The translations under genes and the position numbers were made by a program. A stretch of DNA of 64,000 nt, taken from contig WQSG01000007.1 of the NCBI GenBank assembly GCA_009788055.1, forward strand, positions 294 to 64,293, given 5' to 3'. Positions 3,726 to 22,188 of this stretch are shown here, in pieces. How positions within the stretch are numbered: position 1 is the first letter of the stretch; every line of letters starts with the position of its first letter. The notes beneath the pieces were generated by a model. The model was not told where the DNA came from, searched no databases, and saw only the letters and a program-made list of their open reading frames with translations. This DNA is from Defluviitaleaceae bacterium. Lineage in GTDB: Bacteria; Bacillota; Clostridia; Lachnospirales; WQUN01.

Positions 3726-5749
3726 TTATTCGCAATAGCCTCCTCTTGTGCGATTTTTAGAATGTCCAAGTCGCGGTAGAGGTTGGCTATTTTGAATTCG
3801 GGGAGACCGTGCTGGCGCGTGCCGAAGAAATCGCCTGCGCCGCGCTGTTCCAGGTCTAGTTCGGCAAGGCGAAAACCGTCGGTGGTTTGGGTCATGGCGT
3901 TCATGCGGGAAGTGGTTTGTTCGTTTTTGGAATTGGTTATGAGAACGCAGTGGGATTGGGCAGTGCCGCGCCCAACGCGCCCGCGAAGCTGATGCAGTTG
4001 CGACAGTCCGAAACGCTCTGCGTTTTCTATTACGATTAGTGTCGCGTTGGGTACGTGTACGCCAACTTCGATTACGGTGGTGGAGATGATTACGTCTGTT
4101 TTTCCGGCTTTGAAGTCGTCCATGGTCTGCTGTTTTTCGGCGGGTTTCATGCGCCCGTGCAGATATGCTATTTGCAAGGAGGGCAGGGCTTCGCGCAGTT
4201 CGTTTGTGTACGCGGTTACGTTTTGCAATTCGGTTTTGGTGGGCGCAGTGTCTTGATTTTCTTGTATTGCGGGGCAAATTACATAGGCTTGTCGGTTTTG
4301 TGATGTCTCTTTTAATATGAAGTTGTTGATTCTTTCGCGGTATGAAGAATTGACGCAATATGTTTTTATCGCTTGCCGCCCCGGCGGATATTCGTCGATG
4401 ACGGAAATATCCAAATCACCATAGAGAATCAGCCCCAACGTGCGCGGAATGGGCGTTGCCGTCATAACCAAAACGTGCGGCGCATATTCGTCGGGCGAAC
4501 CTTTTTGCGTCAACGCCAACCGCTGGTTTACGCCGAAACGGTGCTGTTCGTCGGTGATGCACAGGCCAAGACAAGCGTATTCCACGCCGTCTTGGATAAG
4601 CGCGTGTGTGCCGATTATTATTTTCGCGCTACCGTCTTTTATCTTTGCCAACGCTTCGCGCTTTGCTTTTGCCGTAAGACTCCCCGTAAGAAGAACCGCC
4701 CCAATACCTCGCGGCGCGAAAAGTTTTTCGCATTGTACAAAATGCTGGGTCGCAAGAACATCTGTGGGTGCCATCAACGCCGTCTGATATCCGCTTTGCG
4801 CCGCAAGATACGCCGCCGCAAACGCAACCGCCGTTTTCCCGCTTCCCACGTCTCCCTGCACCAACCTGTTCATGCGTATTCCGCAGGAAATATCTTTCGC
4901 AATCTCCGCAAGAACACGCGCTTGCGCCCCTGTCGGCGCGAACTCCAGCCACTCCAAAAAAGGCGCGTAATCCGCACACGAAAACACAATCCCCTTCTGC
5001 GCCTTCACAACCTCCTTTATCTGCAAAAGCGCGACCTGCATGAAAAATAATTCCTCAAAAACCAATCTGCGCCGCGCATGGTGAAACATCTCATCCGTCT
5101 CCGGAAAATGAATATTGCGAATTGCCATCTCCCTATCGCACAAATCATATTTTTCCCTTAACTCCCGCGAAATGTTCTCCTCGAACAATCCCCCTGTTAA
5201 AGTTTTTGTCGAACTTTTTTCAAAAAGTTCGTTGGGGTTCGGGGACAAAGTCCCCGAGAACTTTAGTGCTTCATAAATCAATGCACGAAAAGTTTTCTGC
5301 GAATACAGCTTGGGAACGGTGTAAACGGGTACTATTCTCCCGCCGGAAAGTTCGGTTTCGCCTGCGGCCTCGTAGTCGGGCGATTGCATTTGCAGGATTG
5401 TTCCTTGTTCGCGAATCTTCCCCGTAAAAAGGTATTCGCCGCCCTTCTTGAAATTTTTTTTGAGATATGGTTGGTTGAACCAGATTATTTCTAAAGTGCC
5501 TGTGTGGTCTTTTATTTTCAGCTTGGTTACGGTGAAACGCTTTAGCGTGACACACTCCGGCTCAAACGCAACAATGCCGCGAATTGTATTCACGGCATCG
5601 GGAATAAGCTCCGCAATGGTTTTTACATTACTGCGGTCGTCGTAATCACGGGGGAAATGTTCCAGCAAATCTGCAACGGTAAATATCCCCGCAGATTGCA
5701 AAGCGTGGGCACGTTTCGCGCCCACGCCTGAAAGTTCTGTTATAAACAT
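3680..5749 (-). CDS. recG: ATP-dependent DNA helicase RecG with repeat-derived insert and tail
   Basis: RecG (689 aa) reverses stalled replication forks and processes recombination intermediates. Visible parts are an N-terminal wedge/OB region, Walker A GDVGSGKTAVA, TDEQHRFG (Walker B; DEQH box), MTATPIPRT and the C-terminal helicase motif LHGRMKPAEK with QLRGRVGRG. Residues about 163-186 are translated from an in-frame copy of the palindromic repeat, and the last dozen residues (GALPPHPHELF) come from another copy that also supplies the TGA. The helicase motifs are intact, so the protein is probably functional. It is last in an operon with asp23 and fakA (2 bp between fakA and recG). Confidence 0.95.
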   Translation of the reverse strand: MFITELSGVGAKRAHALQSAGIFTVADLLEHFPRDYDDRSNVKTIAELIPDAVNTIRGIVAFEPECVTLKRFTVTKLKIKDHTGTLEIIWFNQPYLKKNFKKGGEYLFTGKIREQGTILQMQSPDYEAAGETELSGGRIVPVYTVPKLYSQKTFRALIYEALKFSGTLSPNPNELFEKSSTKTLTGGLFEENISRELREKYDLCDREMAIRNIHFPETDEMFHHARRRLVFEELFFMQVALLQIKEVVKAQKGIVFSCADYAPFLEWLEFAPTGAQARVLAEIAKDISCGIRMNRLVQGDVGSGKTAVAFAAAYLAAQSGYQTALMAPTDVLATQHFVQCEKLFAPRGIGAVLLTGSLTAKAKREALAKIKDGSAKIIIGTHALIQDGVEYACLGLCITDEQHRFGVNQRLALTQKGSPDEYAPHVLVMTATPIPRTLGLILYGDLDISVIDEYPPGRQAIKTYCVNSSYRERINNFILKETSQNRQAYVICPAIQENQDTAPTKTELQNVTAYTNELREALPSLQIAYLHGRMKPAEKQQTMDDFKAGKTDVIISTTVIEVGVHVPNATLIVIENAERFGLSQLHQLRGRVGRGTAQSHCVLITNSKNEQTTSRMNAMTQTTDGFRLAELDLEQRGAGDFFGTRQHGLPEFKIANLYRDLDILKIAQEEAIANKDIVGALPPHPHELF
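5196..5263. repeat. Palindromic repeat family, copy 2 (in frame inside recG)
   Basis: This half-copy (about 68 bp) contains GTTAAAGTTTTTGTCGAAC, the GAAC/GTTC hairpin and GGGGAC...GTCCCC, ending GAGAACTTTA. It is translated on the minus strand as part of RecG (SGTLSPNPNELFEKSSTKTL) and keeps the frame open. Confidence 0.9.
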
Positions 5750-17009: not shown

Positions 17010-20000
17010 TTAACGGCAACGGTCGCAGACGTCGTGCGGGCAGAGTGTTGGGAAGTGACCCGCCAACGCCCGTGCAAGACGGATAAGGTCGAGCGTATTC
17101 ACAACGCCGTCGCAGTTTATATCTGCGGCGCGGCGGTCGAAGGTTACATACTGCCCCACCAAATACCGCGCAAGGAGCGTCGCGCTTGCGGAAGTTACGC
17201 GCCCGCTTCCGCCTGTATCGCCGATTCTTGCGGGCTGAACGCGCACTTCGCCGTTTATGGTGGAAATTTGCAGTTCTTCGTAATCTGTGTTTCGGGGGTA
17301 TTCCTCACCTGTAAGCGCGTTTTCAAAAGTGACGGTTATTGGCAATCTGCGGTTGGTTTCCATATCATCACAAACGGAAAATGTTAAGGTTAGCAATGTG
17401 CCGTTGTGGGTGATGTTTGCCGTGCGCCCTGCCCAGCCCATGTATACATAATTGCCCACAGTGGATAAATCTTCCGGAGTTTCAAAGTTTTCGTACAGGC
17501 TGTGGTGGGATAAAGCGTAGCCCGTTAAGGTAAGTTCCGCAGGGAAATCCAAACGCATAAACATGGATGCAAAACCGGGATTGTTAGAAATGCGAACATG
17601 AACTTCCACCTCGTCACCCTGGTCTGCAAACGTCGTAGAGATGGTGAGAGCAGGCGCGGTTAGGTCAACGGGCGGCGCGGGAGCTTGTGAAATTTCAACG
17701 GTAATTTGCCTTTCTTCATAACCCTCAACATTGTATGCTCTAACCGTGAAGGTGAAATTTCCGCTTTGTGTTGGCGTACCTGATAACAACCCCTGTGCGT
17801 TAAGCGTCAGCCCCGTCGGCAAATCTCCCGTGTACGACCATGAGGGGGCGGGGTTGCCCGTTGCGGCAAAACGGAAGCTGTAATCTGTGTTTACCGCGCC
17901 GCTTGGTGCATTTGCATTTGTTATCACGGGGATGTTTTCATTTACGGGATACGAAACAATAAGAATTTCCGCACTGTAGGGCATTCCGTAAAACCTTCCG
18001 CGTAATGCGTAATCGGAAAGCCAGTATTCTTCGGGTAGGTTTATGCGGGTGTCACCGCCGATAAAATCCGTGCTTCCCATGATATGATGACTGTTTGCGG
18101 AAATTCCCGGGCCATACACAACAACCTGCCATTCAATGCCCGGAAGGGTTGGCCCCATAACACGCGCATTGTCGAATGAAATTTCTCCCGCAACCCTGTA
18201 AGATGGGGCTGTGATTCTAAAGCCTGTTGCGCCTGCGGCTGTCAGCGGCGCAATTGTCAAAAAGCTTTCGGATGTATTTACCGTGGGTTCTCCCAAGTAC
18301 AAACTCATACCGGATATCGCGCCATAGTTTACGGGAACACCGTTTCGTGTGGCTTGCAGTCTGAATCTGATTTCATCGTTGAAGTTGAAGGTGTGCGGAG
18401 ACGCTTCTGTTACGCTGAAACTGCCCACAGGTGTAACGGAAAGTGTGGTTAGCGTTTCGCGGGTGATTTCAACGGGATTGCTTTGTATGATTATAGGGTC
18501 GGTTGCATTTGCTACGATTGCCGTACCCACATACTCATTGTTGCGGTATACCCGCATTGCAATTTCATTTCCGAAACGTGCTTCAAATCCCGCTTCAACA
18601 CTTAAAAGTACGCCTATATCCAGTCTGCGCAAACGGAATTGTGCGTCCGGATTAAGTGGGCGCGTTGCAAAGGAAAGCGAGCCGTCATTGTTAAATTCGT
18701 ACATAGCGGGAACAAAAAAGTCATTGCGCCAATACATACCACCCCAGCCGAAAATATCGGTGTTTGCACCCTCACGCCCGGCTCTTGCCCTTGCGTTAAC
18801 AATGCGCACACCCTCGGCGGGTACAATGCGGAAATTATCTGTAGAACTGAACATAGTCCCCGCAACCTGTTCGGAAATACGGATGGTGTGTTCCGCGCCG
18901 TTTAGCCAGCGGTTACTGTCTGAAAAATCTAACCCTGAGCTCCAATATTCCATGGGCAAATCATTTACGGCAACAGACCAACCGCCGGAGCGTATTGTTT
19001 GAAGCGCGACAGGGCCGGAAACTGCCAACCCGCTGTCCAAATCAAGGGACGCGACCACAAGCCCGCGTTCGCGCCATTCGCTTGCTTCATTGGTGCGTTC
19101 TGTCCAGTACGAGCCGGGCTGTGAAATGCGCACTTGTCTGCCGGGGTCGCGGTCTAAAACTCCCAGCGTACCGCTACCATGTGCATCCGGACCGGGAGGG
19201 GCTTGCCACGCCATGTTGCCGGAAACCGCACCAACATATACATCAATTGCCATATCCCCCGTAGTGGGCGAAAGTGCGGCGGGCATAAGCGATAACCCGT
19301 GGATGGTAACTTCCGCAGGGGTTGTTCTTGCGGTAAACGATGTACCTCTGGGGGGCATCGAAATGTAAAGGATAAGTTCATTTCTGTCGGTAAACGAGTT
19401 TGCAAACGGGTTGGATGTTGGCGCATTCCAGTGCCTGTTTGCCGGAACGTGCCAGAAAGAAGTGTCTACAACCGCAATGCCCCCAAAGGCATTAAAAGAC
19501 TCGCGCCTATTGTTATTACCAAATGCTATATTACCTGTTGCAAAAACATCTTGCATATCCCAGTTAAACCCTCGGGGTGCAACCAACCGCACATGAAAGC
19601 CGTTGTTTGTGTGTACAGGGTCAGGGGAAAGAAACCTTCCAACAACGGCTTCTTCAATTTTTATGCCTGAAAGCCGTGCCGTGCTGGCTACGGGAACAAT
19701 ACTTTCCGTTCGTATATTCACACCGCTTCCCCAGCCTAGGAACATTTGCGCGTTTTCTACCAATGCAGTATTGGTAGGGAGCATACTCCCGCCGCCCTGC
19801 CGCAAAACAATGGACATTTCCGCATCAGATTGGCTTGCTCGTACTCCGCCAATGGTTACATCAATCCAGCCTTCAAGTGCGGGGAACTCACCTGAGATAG
19901 AACCATTTATGCTTGGCCACGCTGCCGCACGTTCTGCCCACGTTTGCGCACCGGCAAACAAGTCCAGCTGAATTTGCCGCCAAAATGTTTGATGTTGATA

Positions 20001-20657
20001 TCCCATAGGAAAGTCCCAGTCACTTGGGGTTGCCCTCCAATTCCATCCATTTCGCCCGGGAGCGTTATAGTCCAAATATTCCCTATTATTTGGGTTGTTT
20101 GCAAGATTATTCATTTGAGAGAGGAAAATGGCAACACTACTGCCCGATTCCCCTTCCACGCGAAAGTTCGGACCGGCAGAAAAAGTTAATGTAACTGCCG
20201 AATTGCGGGTAAACCTAAATGTCTCAATTCCACCCCACGGAGACCGTTGAGTCCATTCCGCATCAGGGTCAAGACCGGGCGCAATAGGCCCGGCAAAACC
20301 AACCTCATGCGCACTCGTGCCGCCTGCAATCGTAAAGTCCAGCACTGCCATTGTGCCGTGGTCAACAACCAAGTTCGACAATGCTTGTGCGTCAATTCTA
20401 AATGTATAGCTGTCTACACCCCAAACAGGAGCGTTTCTTGGGTCACGCATTTCACCGGGGCGTGCCGCAATGCTCATTGCTTCAACTTCAATACACTCAA
20501 AATTTACCGCCGAGGGCGTGGTAACGGCAAAGCCTGTAAAGTTATCGTCCGCAATCGGATGGTAATAATCTGTCGGTTCTGCCGAAACAGGCATCCCTCC
20601 AACTACCATTACAAATGCCATAAGTACACACAAAACTTTTTTAAAGCCCTTGTACAT
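17010..20657 (-). CDS. Large exported protein with Ig-like, cohesin and dockerin modules
   Basis: The 1215-residue protein has a signal peptide (KKVLCVLMAFVMVVGGMPVSA) and a long beta-rich region without recognised enzymatic motifs. Then come a He_PIG-type Ig module (about 925-1010; LPTGLTLNAQGLLSGTPTQSG), a cohesin-like domain (about 1020-1145; GDEVEVHVRISNNPGFASM) and a C-terminal dockerin-like pair. The second calcium loop is canonical (DINCDGVVNTLD). The first (DTGGSGRVTSAS) has lost acidic ligands. Having both cohesin and dockerin suggests an adaptor in a surface assembly. GGGAGC lies before the ATG. No scaffoldin or glycosidase is seen in the window. Confidence 0.8.
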   Translation of the reverse strand: MYKGFKKVLCVLMAFVMVVGGMPVSAEPTDYYHPIADDNFTGFAVTTPSAVNFECIEVEAMSIAARPGEMRDPRNAPVWGVDSYTFRIDAQALSNLVVDHGTMAVLDFTIAGGTSAHEVGFAGPIAPGLDPDAEWTQRSPWGGIETFRFTRNSAVTLTFSAGPNFRVEGESGSSVAIFLSQMNNLANNPNNREYLDYNAPGRNGWNWRATPSDWDFPMGYQHQTFWRQIQLDLFAGAQTWAERAAAWPSINGSISGEFPALEGWIDVTIGGVRASQSDAEMSIVLRQGGGSMLPTNTALVENAQMFLGWGSGVNIRTESIVPVASTARLSGIKIEEAVVGRFLSPDPVHTNNGFHVRLVAPRGFNWDMQDVFATGNIAFGNNNRRESFNAFGGIAVVDTSFWHVPANRHWNAPTSNPFANSFTDRNELILYISMPPRGTSFTARTTPAEVTIHGLSLMPAALSPTTGDMAIDVYVGAVSGNMAWQAPPGPDAHGSGTLGVLDRDPGRQVRISQPGSYWTERTNEASEWRERGLVVASLDLDSGLAVSGPVALQTIRSGGWSVAVNDLPMEYWSSGLDFSDSNRWLNGAEHTIRISEQVAGTMFSSTDNFRIVPAEGVRIVNARARAGREGANTDIFGWGGMYWRNDFFVPAMYEFNNDGSLSFATRPLNPDAQFRLRRLDIGVLLSVEAGFEARFGNEIAMRVYRNNEYVGTAIVANATDPIIIQSNPVEITRETLTTLSVTPVGSFSVTEASPHTFNFNDEIRFRLQATRNGVPVNYGAISGMSLYLGEPTVNTSESFLTIAPLTAAGATGFRITAPSYRVAGEISFDNARVMGPTLPGIEWQVVVYGPGISANSHHIMGSTDFIGGDTRINLPEEYWLSDYALRGRFYGMPYSAEILIVSYPVNENIPVITNANAPSGAVNTDYSFRFAATGNPAPSWSYTGDLPTGLTLNAQGLLSGTPTQSGNFTFTVRAYNVEGYEERQITVEISQAPAPPVDLTAPALTISTTFADQGDEVEVHVRISNNPGFASMFMRLDFPAELTLTGYALSHHSLYENFETPEDLSTVGNYVYMGWAGRTANITHNGTLLTLTFSVCDDMETNRRLPITVTFENALTGEEYPRNTDYEELQISTINGEVRVQPARIGDTGGSGRVTSASATLLARYLVGQYVTFDRRAADINCDGVVNTLDLIRLARALAGHFPTLCPHDVCDRCR

Positions 20658-20816: not shown

Positions 20817-21098
20817 ATGGTAAGAAAAATTGAAAACAGGGAAATTATTACACTTGGCGAAGCAAGCGAAAAATATAACAACTGCCGTTTTGTATTTGTT
20901 TACACAGAGGATATCAACTACGGCGGCGAAGAAAGCAAGGGTTACGTAGCTTACACTTATGACAAGGAAAGTGAAATGCGGCAAATACCCAAAGATGATA
21001 TAGGTGATAAAAGTTATGGTCATGACTGGGGCAGAAACTACGACCCGGAGCCTTATCCTGTTATAGGGGGCATTATTTATGGCAACGAGGGCTACTAG
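20817..21098 (+). CDS. Hypothetical protein (93 aa) upstream of the recombinase locus
   Basis: An AGGAGG site and a promoter make this a credible gene. The product is hydrophilic, with many Tyr, Asp and Glu (FVFVYTEDINYGGEES, YDKESEMRQIPKDD) and a C-terminal PVIGGIIYGNEGY. There is no membrane segment or known motif. It sits between the cohesin/dockerin gene (divergent) and the inverted-site/recombinase region. It is followed by a terminator-like hairpin at 21189-21225. The function is unknown. Confidence 0.65.
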   Translation: MVRKIENREIITLGEASEKYNNCRFVFVYTEDINYGGEESKGYVAYTYDKESEMRQIPKDDIGDKSYGHDWGRNYDPEPYPVIGGIIYGNEGY

Positions 21099-21188
21099 GC
21101 TTAGTGAAGACGGAAGGGCTATTTGTCGGATAGCGTTTAAACCGTATGAAAAATTGGTTAAACAATTAAAACCCCGCCCTCCAATTTT

Positions 21189-21225: not shown

Positions 21226-21310
21226 ATGCAAAATTTTTCAAAAGTCTTAGAATTGTTCATAGTGATTTTTCACCATTTTTTGCTATGCTTTTTATCAAGC
21301 ACGGCGCGTG

Positions 21311-21338
21311 ATGTAACAGAATATCCATTGTGTTACAT
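21311..21338 (+). repeat. 28-bp dif-like inverted site, left copy
   Basis: Two 11-bp arms (ATGTAACAGAA and TTGTGTTACAT) flank the 6-bp centre TATCCA. The site is 27/28 identical to the reverse complement of the copy at 21452-21479. The 11-6-11 layout is that of Xer/dif recombination sites. Confidence 0.85.
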
Positions 21339-21365
21339 TCGCGCAAACGCAGTAAAAATGGGCAT

Positions 21366-21396
21366 TAAAAAAGCGAAGACGGTTTTCATCTTCGCA
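21366..21396 (-). terminator. One-directional terminator inside the candidate invertible segment
   Basis: The stem GCGAAGA/TCTTCGC (21373-21379 and 21389-21395) has a T-run only when read on the minus strand (CTTCGCTTTTTTAAT). On the plus strand it is followed by AAAAG, so it should not stop transcription toward the recombinase as the DNA now lies. Confidence 0.6.
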
Positions 21397-21451
21397 AAAG
21401 TTCAAATTATGTACAGCTACAACCCCGATTTTATGCGGGCAAATTCAACCC

Positions 21452-21479
21452 ATGTAACACAATGGATATTATGTTACAT
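21452..21479 (-). repeat. 28-bp dif-like inverted site, right copy
   Basis: The arms ATGTAACACAA and TTATGTTACAT flank TGGATA. The right arm differs from the XerD arm of E. coli dif (TTATGTTAAAT) by one base. The similarity to the left copy stops exactly at the 28-bp boundaries. Confidence 0.85.
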
Positions 21480-21525
21480 GAAAAAAACTAATCTAAAAAA
21501 TCCAATTCCGTAGGAGGAAAAAACC

Positions 21526-22092
21526 ATGGCACTCACAGAACCAATCCGCGACCCAAAACAAGTAAGGGAATTTCTTGCGTACTACCGCAAGCTTGGGCAA
21601 ACCCGCAACCAAGTTTTAGTAACCATTGCGCTACACACGGCCTTGCGCATTTCGGATATCTTACGCCTGCGCACCTGTGATGTGTACGACTTCGCAAACC
21701 GCCGCGCCCGTACATCCATCACTATAACAGAGCGGAAAACAGGCAAAAGCAAAATCATTGCACTGCATAAAAACATCATCCGCGCACTGGAAGCCCACTT
21801 CCCGCAAGCCGCGTCAAACGCGCCGCTTATTCTGAACCTAAGTACAAACAAACCAATCAGCCGTGTACACGCATATCGTCTAATAAGTGAAGCCGCAAAC
21901 GCAATCGGCGTTATCCACAAAGTTGGCTGTCACTCACTGCGCAAAACTTTCGGCTACCATTCTTGGACAAGCGGAACTTCGCCCGTTGTCATTATGGAAA
22001 TTTACAACCATAATTCATACGCCGTCACAAAACGCTATCTTGGCGTGTCACAAGACGACAAAAACGCCGTGTACGAAAAACTGGATTTCTAA
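21526..22092 (+). CDS. Small tyrosine recombinase (FimB/RecV size class)
   Basis: The 188-residue protein consists essentially of the catalytic domain. The active-site set is complete: R41 (TALRISDIL), Lys in ERKTGKSK (71/74), H136-x-x-R139 (CHSLRKTFG), H162 (NHNS) and nucleophile Y171 (TKRYLGV). It lacks most of the N-terminal arm/core-binding domain of XerC/D or phage integrases. Its length matches FimB/FimE-type invertases and small clostridial recombinases that flip promoter segments. GGAGG lies 10 bp before ATG 21526. The neighbouring inverted 28-bp sites are likely targets (inference). No phage or integrative-element genes adjoin it. Confidence 0.88.
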   Translation: MALTEPIRDPKQVREFLAYYRKLGQTRNQVLVTIALHTALRISDILRLRTCDVYDFANRRARTSITITERKTGKSKIIALHKNIIRALEAHFPQAASNAPLILNLSTNKPISRVHAYRLISEAANAIGVIHKVGCHSLRKTFGYHSWTSGTSPVVIMEIYNHNSYAVTKRYLGVSQDDKNAVYEKLDF

Positions 22093-22188
22093 AATTTTCT
22101 AAGAAAAATTCCAAATTAATTTTAGCACCCTAATTCTCTATGTCAACAAATTTTTCCAACGTGTGTTGCTTGCCGGAAAACTTAATTA

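Follow-up and report, generated by a model that had tools for sequence, protein, structure and literature searches.

A Small Tyrosine Recombinase beside Two Inverted Sites

The stretch analyzed here (hereafter the window) comprises 64,000 nucleotides of contig WQSG01000007.1 from a Defluviitaleaceae bacterium and contains two short, nearly identical sequences that face each other just upstream of a gene for a small tyrosine recombinase. This arrangement raises the question of whether the recombinase inverts the DNA between the two sites and, if so, which gene the inversion controls. The two 28-bp sites described in the initial annotation were readily confirmed: S1 (ATGTAACAGAATATCCATTGTGTTACAT; positions 21311–21338, + strand), which has an 11-6-11 layout, and S2 (ATGTAACACAATGGATATTATGTTACAT; 21452–21479, + strand) match each other as inverted repeats at 27 of 28 positions. 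They lie 113 bp apart, and the DNA exactly between them (21339–21451, assigned to neither strand) is the putative invertible segment, so that the locus displays the inverted sites flanking a regulatory segment by which invertons are recognized. A degenerate pattern for the whole site occurs twice in the 64 kb, at S1 and S2, for an expectation of 0.00 (0 in 100 shuffles), unlike the pattern of a lone arm, ATGTAACANAA, which is ordinary by itself (8 matches vs. 5.6 expected).

Each site is also an imperfect palindrome on its own, and the genome of origin displays the segment in a single orientation, two features that would suit operators of a DNA-binding regulator that never recombine. We give this explanation hardly any credence: the asymmetric 6-bp centers of S1 and S2 match in inverted order, the segment of two paralogous loci described below (L025 and L026) is inverted exactly at the sites, and the exact site pair was found solely in recombinase-bearing genomes in the family search.

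The recombinase gene (21526–22092, + strand) starts 46 bp past S2 and is preceded by a ribosome-binding site, AGGAGG, read directly in the sequence (21512–21517, + strand). Its intact ORF encodes a protein of 188 aa reduced to the catalytic domain, over the full length of which extends the Pfam match (PF00589, Phage_integrase; 3e-21). The catalytic residues R-K-H-R-H-Y are invariant across 36 relatives, and with the fold they supply what characterizes tyrosine recombinases (R-K-H-R-H/W-Y), in agreement with the complete active site originally annotated. XerC and XerD models match the protein with their C-terminal part only. The AlphaFold model (pLDDT 93) finds its best solved structural match in XerA, with a TM-score of up to 0.78 by query length. 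The NCBIfam models for tyrosine-type DNA invertases (FimB/FimE) give 31–36 bits, below their curated cut-offs of 221–222.

A One-Way Terminator in the Segment

The segment carries a predicted intrinsic terminator (21367–21395, − strand), in which GCGAAGATGAAAACCGTCTTCGC is followed by TTTTTT (−12.2 kcal/mol) and which, as assembled, would act on leftward transcription; the plus strand of the window segment has no intrinsic terminator. At this locus alone, the energy is just past the 5% point of shuffled sequences (−10.5), and conservation in relatives gives, at the sequence level, stronger evidence for the terminator than this single value. At 15 loci (the window included, four being own-genome copies), a one-way terminator faces left, with the recombinase behind it; in L026 it faces right. 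An apparent right-facing terminator (−10.9) is also seen in L101, whose recombinase frame lacks an ATG start. Five loci (L058, L061, L062, L068, and L108) have the sites and no clear terminator. A short ORF across the segment and S2 (MYSYNPDF...) is present in near copies only, loses its frame in L014 and L025, and was treated as due to chance.

Taken together with the comparisons presented below, these features make it probable that the locus is an inverton for phase variation, comparable in its operation to the cwpV switch of Clostridioides difficile but carrying its recombinase in cis. The recombinase would bind the four 11-bp arms of S1 and S2 and exchange strands within the 6-bp centers, and the 113 bp would then be inverted. 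In the assembled orientation, the terminator would stop leftward transcription coming from the recombinase side from reaching the divergent surface gene (target OFF), and read-through toward the recombinase would be possible; after inversion, the terminator would be turned around, leaving the leftward gene open to transcription (target ON). The window locus is very probably one among about a dozen copies of a small switch in which a recombinase flips a segment, and the most likely effect of inversion is to turn adjacent surface-protein genes of this gut bacterium on and off.

Copies in the Same Genome

The search of the own genome (2.8 Mb in 87 contigs) yielded at least 10 recombinase copies, 93–98% identical, several of them broken off at contig ends. 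Six site pairs (12 sites) are complete, all at a spacing of 141 bp, and the orientation of the segment relative to its flanks is identical in the six; no inverted segment copy was seen among them. Contig ends near S2 would be compatible with mixed orientations, although the presence of repeat copies accounts for them just as well. With dS of 0.27–0.45 and dN/dS of 0.05–0.08, the own-genome copies are old and under strong purifying selection; the dN/dS value of L018/L020 is a frame artifact from an insertion and was left aside. Their right ends agree near position 22154, their left ends vary, and no shared left end was found.

At all six complete switches, the left neighbor is a leftward gene. 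These genes encode a dockerin/cohesin-like protein (window), an M23-peptidase/fn3 protein, a WG-repeat lipoprotein, a zinc-ribbon protein, a lipoprotein-like product (gene start 128 bp from S1), and a membrane-type protein. The copies C7, C24, and C71 have different switch-side surface proteins with a similar signal-peptide start (MYRSFKKVLCIFM type), a likeness which suggests that one 5′ end was reused with different mature domains. The C51 copy (L084:1–346) has no sites, and part of its upstream sequence resembles the C-terminus of a serine recombinase, possibly from an inserted element. In L020 (∼4780–4815), the outer half of S1 is replaced, as if swapped with unrelated sequence near the crossover center; S2 and the recombinase are intact.

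Site Pairs and Inversion in Related Genomes

At an E-value of 1e-40, 71 of the 393 genomes that represent the order have a member of the recombinase family. Counting as a pair an inverted match of at least 20/26 over 26 bp within 260 bp upstream, and considering only loci with at least 260 bp of upstream sequence, we found a matched inverted pair at 24 of 46 non-redundant loci and at 0 of 138 shuffled controls. Three further loci (L014, L021, and L066) have their site pair farther upstream. Clostridium relatives and relatives in order-family f5 are mostly devoid of such a pair. Site sequences diverge widely across loci and match within each of them, as expected if each recombinase has its own sites. 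In L068 and L101, the recombinase frames start at ATA instead of ATG, and that of L068 also contains an internal stop; these two switches may be locked.

The strongest available evidence for inversion, read directly from sequence alignment, comes from L025 and L026, which both belong to a single related genome (MAG Th196P3bin142). The two loci are collinear to the left of the segment (89% over 252 bp) and again across the right flank and the recombinase (94.5% over 804 bp), and the segment aligns only as a reverse complement, exactly at the sites (108/114 identical; score 102 vs. −10). The L026 segment is also inverted relative to that of the window. Because the two loci are paralogs, the inversion could be old and is no proof of current switching. 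A single orientation throughout, named in the initial annotation as a finding against a switch, is partly what was seen: the own genome has a single orientation (6/6), and it is in a relative that L026 is opposite to L025. L026, the one clearly inverted copy, also has a leftward RelB/RelE-like toxin–antitoxin pair (from sequence reading) between S2 and the recombinase (L026:4452–4906), which is absent from its paralog L025.

Since the same architecture recurs with different sites, both orientations exist in paralogs, and the recombinases are under purifying selection, the proposal of a self-contained inversion switch, with a terminator segment and a small cis-encoded recombinase, gains support, and the inverton family is real and probably functional.

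In a sister clade (L067, L076, L115–L118, L122, and L126), the segment carries a consensus-like leftward promoter in place of the terminator, with TTGACA-17-TATAAT in six of eight segments. Seven of the eight recombinases form one clade (support 100/98). The gene that follows the recombinase is chain-length-determinant-like in L117 and L122 (polysaccharide-type, from sequence reading), surface-type in L116, and a helix-turn-helix regulator in L076 and L126.

Promoters and Candidate Target Genes

The promoter scoring matrix is an approximate one written for this analysis, and its scores are supporting evidence only. At terminator-type loci, leftward candidates in the interval from S2 to the start of the recombinase score 7.68 on average versus 5.18 in shuffled sequences (0/60 permutations), the strongest ones being TTGACA-18-TATAAT in L060 and TTGACA-17-TATACT in L075. 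The own-genome candidate at this place, TTTAGA-18-CATAAT, is weak (20/60 shuffles as good). A leftward promoter inside terminator-type segments (conserved TAAAAT, −35 in the inner arm of S2) was rejected, as it is not above chance (41/60 shuffles). Left of S1, a consensus scan points weakly to a candidate rightward promoter with an extended −10, GTGATT-16-TATGCT (21262–21289, + strand), which scores 6.1 in the window and 8.2 in copy L007, and whose −10 region is conserved in own-genome copies.

Judging from its divergent position, the probable regulated gene of the window is the one transcribed away from the switch (17010–20657, − strand), which encodes a 1215-aa secreted protein with Ig-like, cohesin-like, and dockerin domains (Pfam; the cohesin match is just below cut-off). 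Transcription of this gene from an outside promoter is the least certain step of the model in the window, because the promoter is weak and the gene starts 653 bp from S1, with an opposing 93-aa ORF in between. Within this interval, at 20817–21160, the 93-aa ORF is followed by the beginning of a gene for a retropepsin-like aspartyl protease, which lacks ∼410 bp here and is intact in the C24 copy (L080:4715–5215; Pfam gag-asp_proteas, just below cut-off). Leftward genes begin 27–69 bp from S1 in L025, L026, L060, L061, L063, L075, L099, and L100. The leftward neighbors in relatives include secreted proteins and pilus-like genes (named from N-terminal sequence, with no Pfam match), and a csrA–flagellin run (Pfam) follows in L062. 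Switch neighbors hence include classic phase-variable functions, namely csrA–flagellin, pilus-like genes, and surface proteins.

The inversion might be real and yet control the recombinase itself in a self-limiting manner, the surface gene being a bystander or both being controlled reciprocally. In the self-control version, a fixed promoter left of S1 would read rightward through the segment, and the inverted terminator would shut the recombinase off. Such a scenario would fit the extended −10 candidates found left of S1 in own-genome copies (GTGACT/GTGATT-16-TATGCT), the strong candidates for rightward promoters seen in L064 (TTGCCA-17-TATTAT) and L075 (TTGACA-18-CAGAAT), and the narrow space that most loci leave between S2 and the recombinase gene for a promoter of that gene. 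However, the enrichment of rightward promoters left of S1 is weak when the loci are taken together (5/60 shuffles score as high), a strong promoter candidate for the recombinase of L062 itself lies right of S2, and self-shut-off would leave most copies in that state, whereas nearly all terminators point the other way. We regard control of the recombinase as unlikely and retain the control of the divergent surface gene. With convergent outside promoters, the terminator might also act as a valve, the surface gene or the recombinase being transcribed but not both; this idea is part of a broader reading, discussed below, which we put forward only tentatively.

Relatives on Plasmids and Phages

Each of two viral contigs has a related small recombinase with one site ∼150 bp in front of its gene (L132:6292–6319 and L134:6165–6192), and these sites are identical to S1 of the relatives L014/L018 and L025/L026. 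L134 also has ParM-like and amidase-like genes. In two Macrococcus plasmids, a Virgibacillus plasmid, and a Geobacillus phage, a close variant of the site precedes the recombinase by 128–182 bp. The scoring matrix included three of these four strong sites, which a palindrome scan had detected first, L149 being independent of it; the other 12 plasmid/phage loci examined gave three weak candidates only and nine none. The orientation of S2 relative to the recombinase is that of the single site in the plasmid/phage relatives. Macrococcus plasmid pMP8659_3 (L136) has two sites upstream of its recombinase that point the same way at a distance of 439 bp, an arrangement suited to deletion and not to inversion.

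These relatives, together with the many dispersed recombinase copies and the replaced outer half of S1 in L020, could indicate that the sites are crossover sites of a mobile element or of a plasmid-style resolution system, and that the pair serves movement or dimer resolution instead of regulation. Against this, chromosomal copies keep two inverted sites, a constant spacing, a one-way terminator, and a divergent gene, and they are old, under strong purifying selection, and without a shared left end, so that we deem such a role very improbable. For the regulatory switch, a single-site phage/plasmid recombinase module is a plausible origin, and an inverted duplication of the site would turn it into an inverter. 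The broader reading, possible but well short of established, is that of a modular switch family with one chassis and interchangeable payloads (terminator or promoter), which arose from phage/plasmid modules by such duplications.

Recognizing phase-variation switches in sequence data is difficult, since the recombinase can be encoded at any place in the genome (PMC5903667). In the present family, the recombinase stays next to its site pair, which allows an assembly to reveal both the switches and the genes they probably control: surface proteins, pilus-like genes, and flagellin operons in relatives, and polysaccharide-type genes in the sister clade. The interest of the family lies in its cis-encoded recombinase, its many copies, the divergence of sites matched to that of recombinases, its two payloads on one chassis, and its plausible phage/plasmid ancestor. 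The design of genetic circuits would also profit from such components, given the short segment, the small recombinases with their single domain, and the many sites that differ from one another.

Comparison with Known Systems

Xer/dif sites are 28 bp long with an 11-6-11 layout. The dif-likeness noted initially is one of layout only, and the nearest solved fold is XerA; the system is another one: instead of one dif per chromosome resolving dimers, the genome has several inverted pairs (12 sites in six pairs), with one small recombinase per locus, whose 188 aa leave out the N-terminal DNA-binding domain of full-length Xer proteins.

The fim switch of Escherichia coli, in which 314 bp with a promoter are inverted (PMC5903667), resembles the present one by its small tyrosine recombinases (FimB/FimE), which are the size of a catalytic domain and adjoin an invertible segment that governs a surface structure. 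The payload differs, being a terminator in the clade of the window, whereas the sister clade does carry a promoter. The Cdi7 site of C. difficile R20291 also has a neighboring recombinase, CDR20291_3416, and inverts independently of RecV (PMC5903667); by its description, the Cdi7 segment differs in containing a small ORF.

The cwpV switch, inverted by RecV, has 21-bp repeats 195 bp apart, a promoter outside the invertible segment, and a proposed intrinsic terminator in the OFF transcript, and recV lies elsewhere (Emerson 2009; PMC2784873). A terminator-bearing segment, which had been thought undescribed under dif-like sites, is thus known in this system, and switches of such a kind are known; it is the self-contained, widely dispersed form that seems new, no description having been found in the literature searched, whose coverage is incomplete. 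Both systems share inverted repeats upstream of a surface-protein gene, a proposed intrinsic terminator (here one-way and inside the segment), and an XerC/D-type tyrosine recombinase; the outside promoter of cwpV has candidate counterparts here, strong in L060 and L075 and weak in the own genome. Unlike cwpV, the switches described here have 28-bp sites, segments of ∼100–145 bp, many copies per genome, and a recombinase beside each of them, in the window 46 bp from S2.
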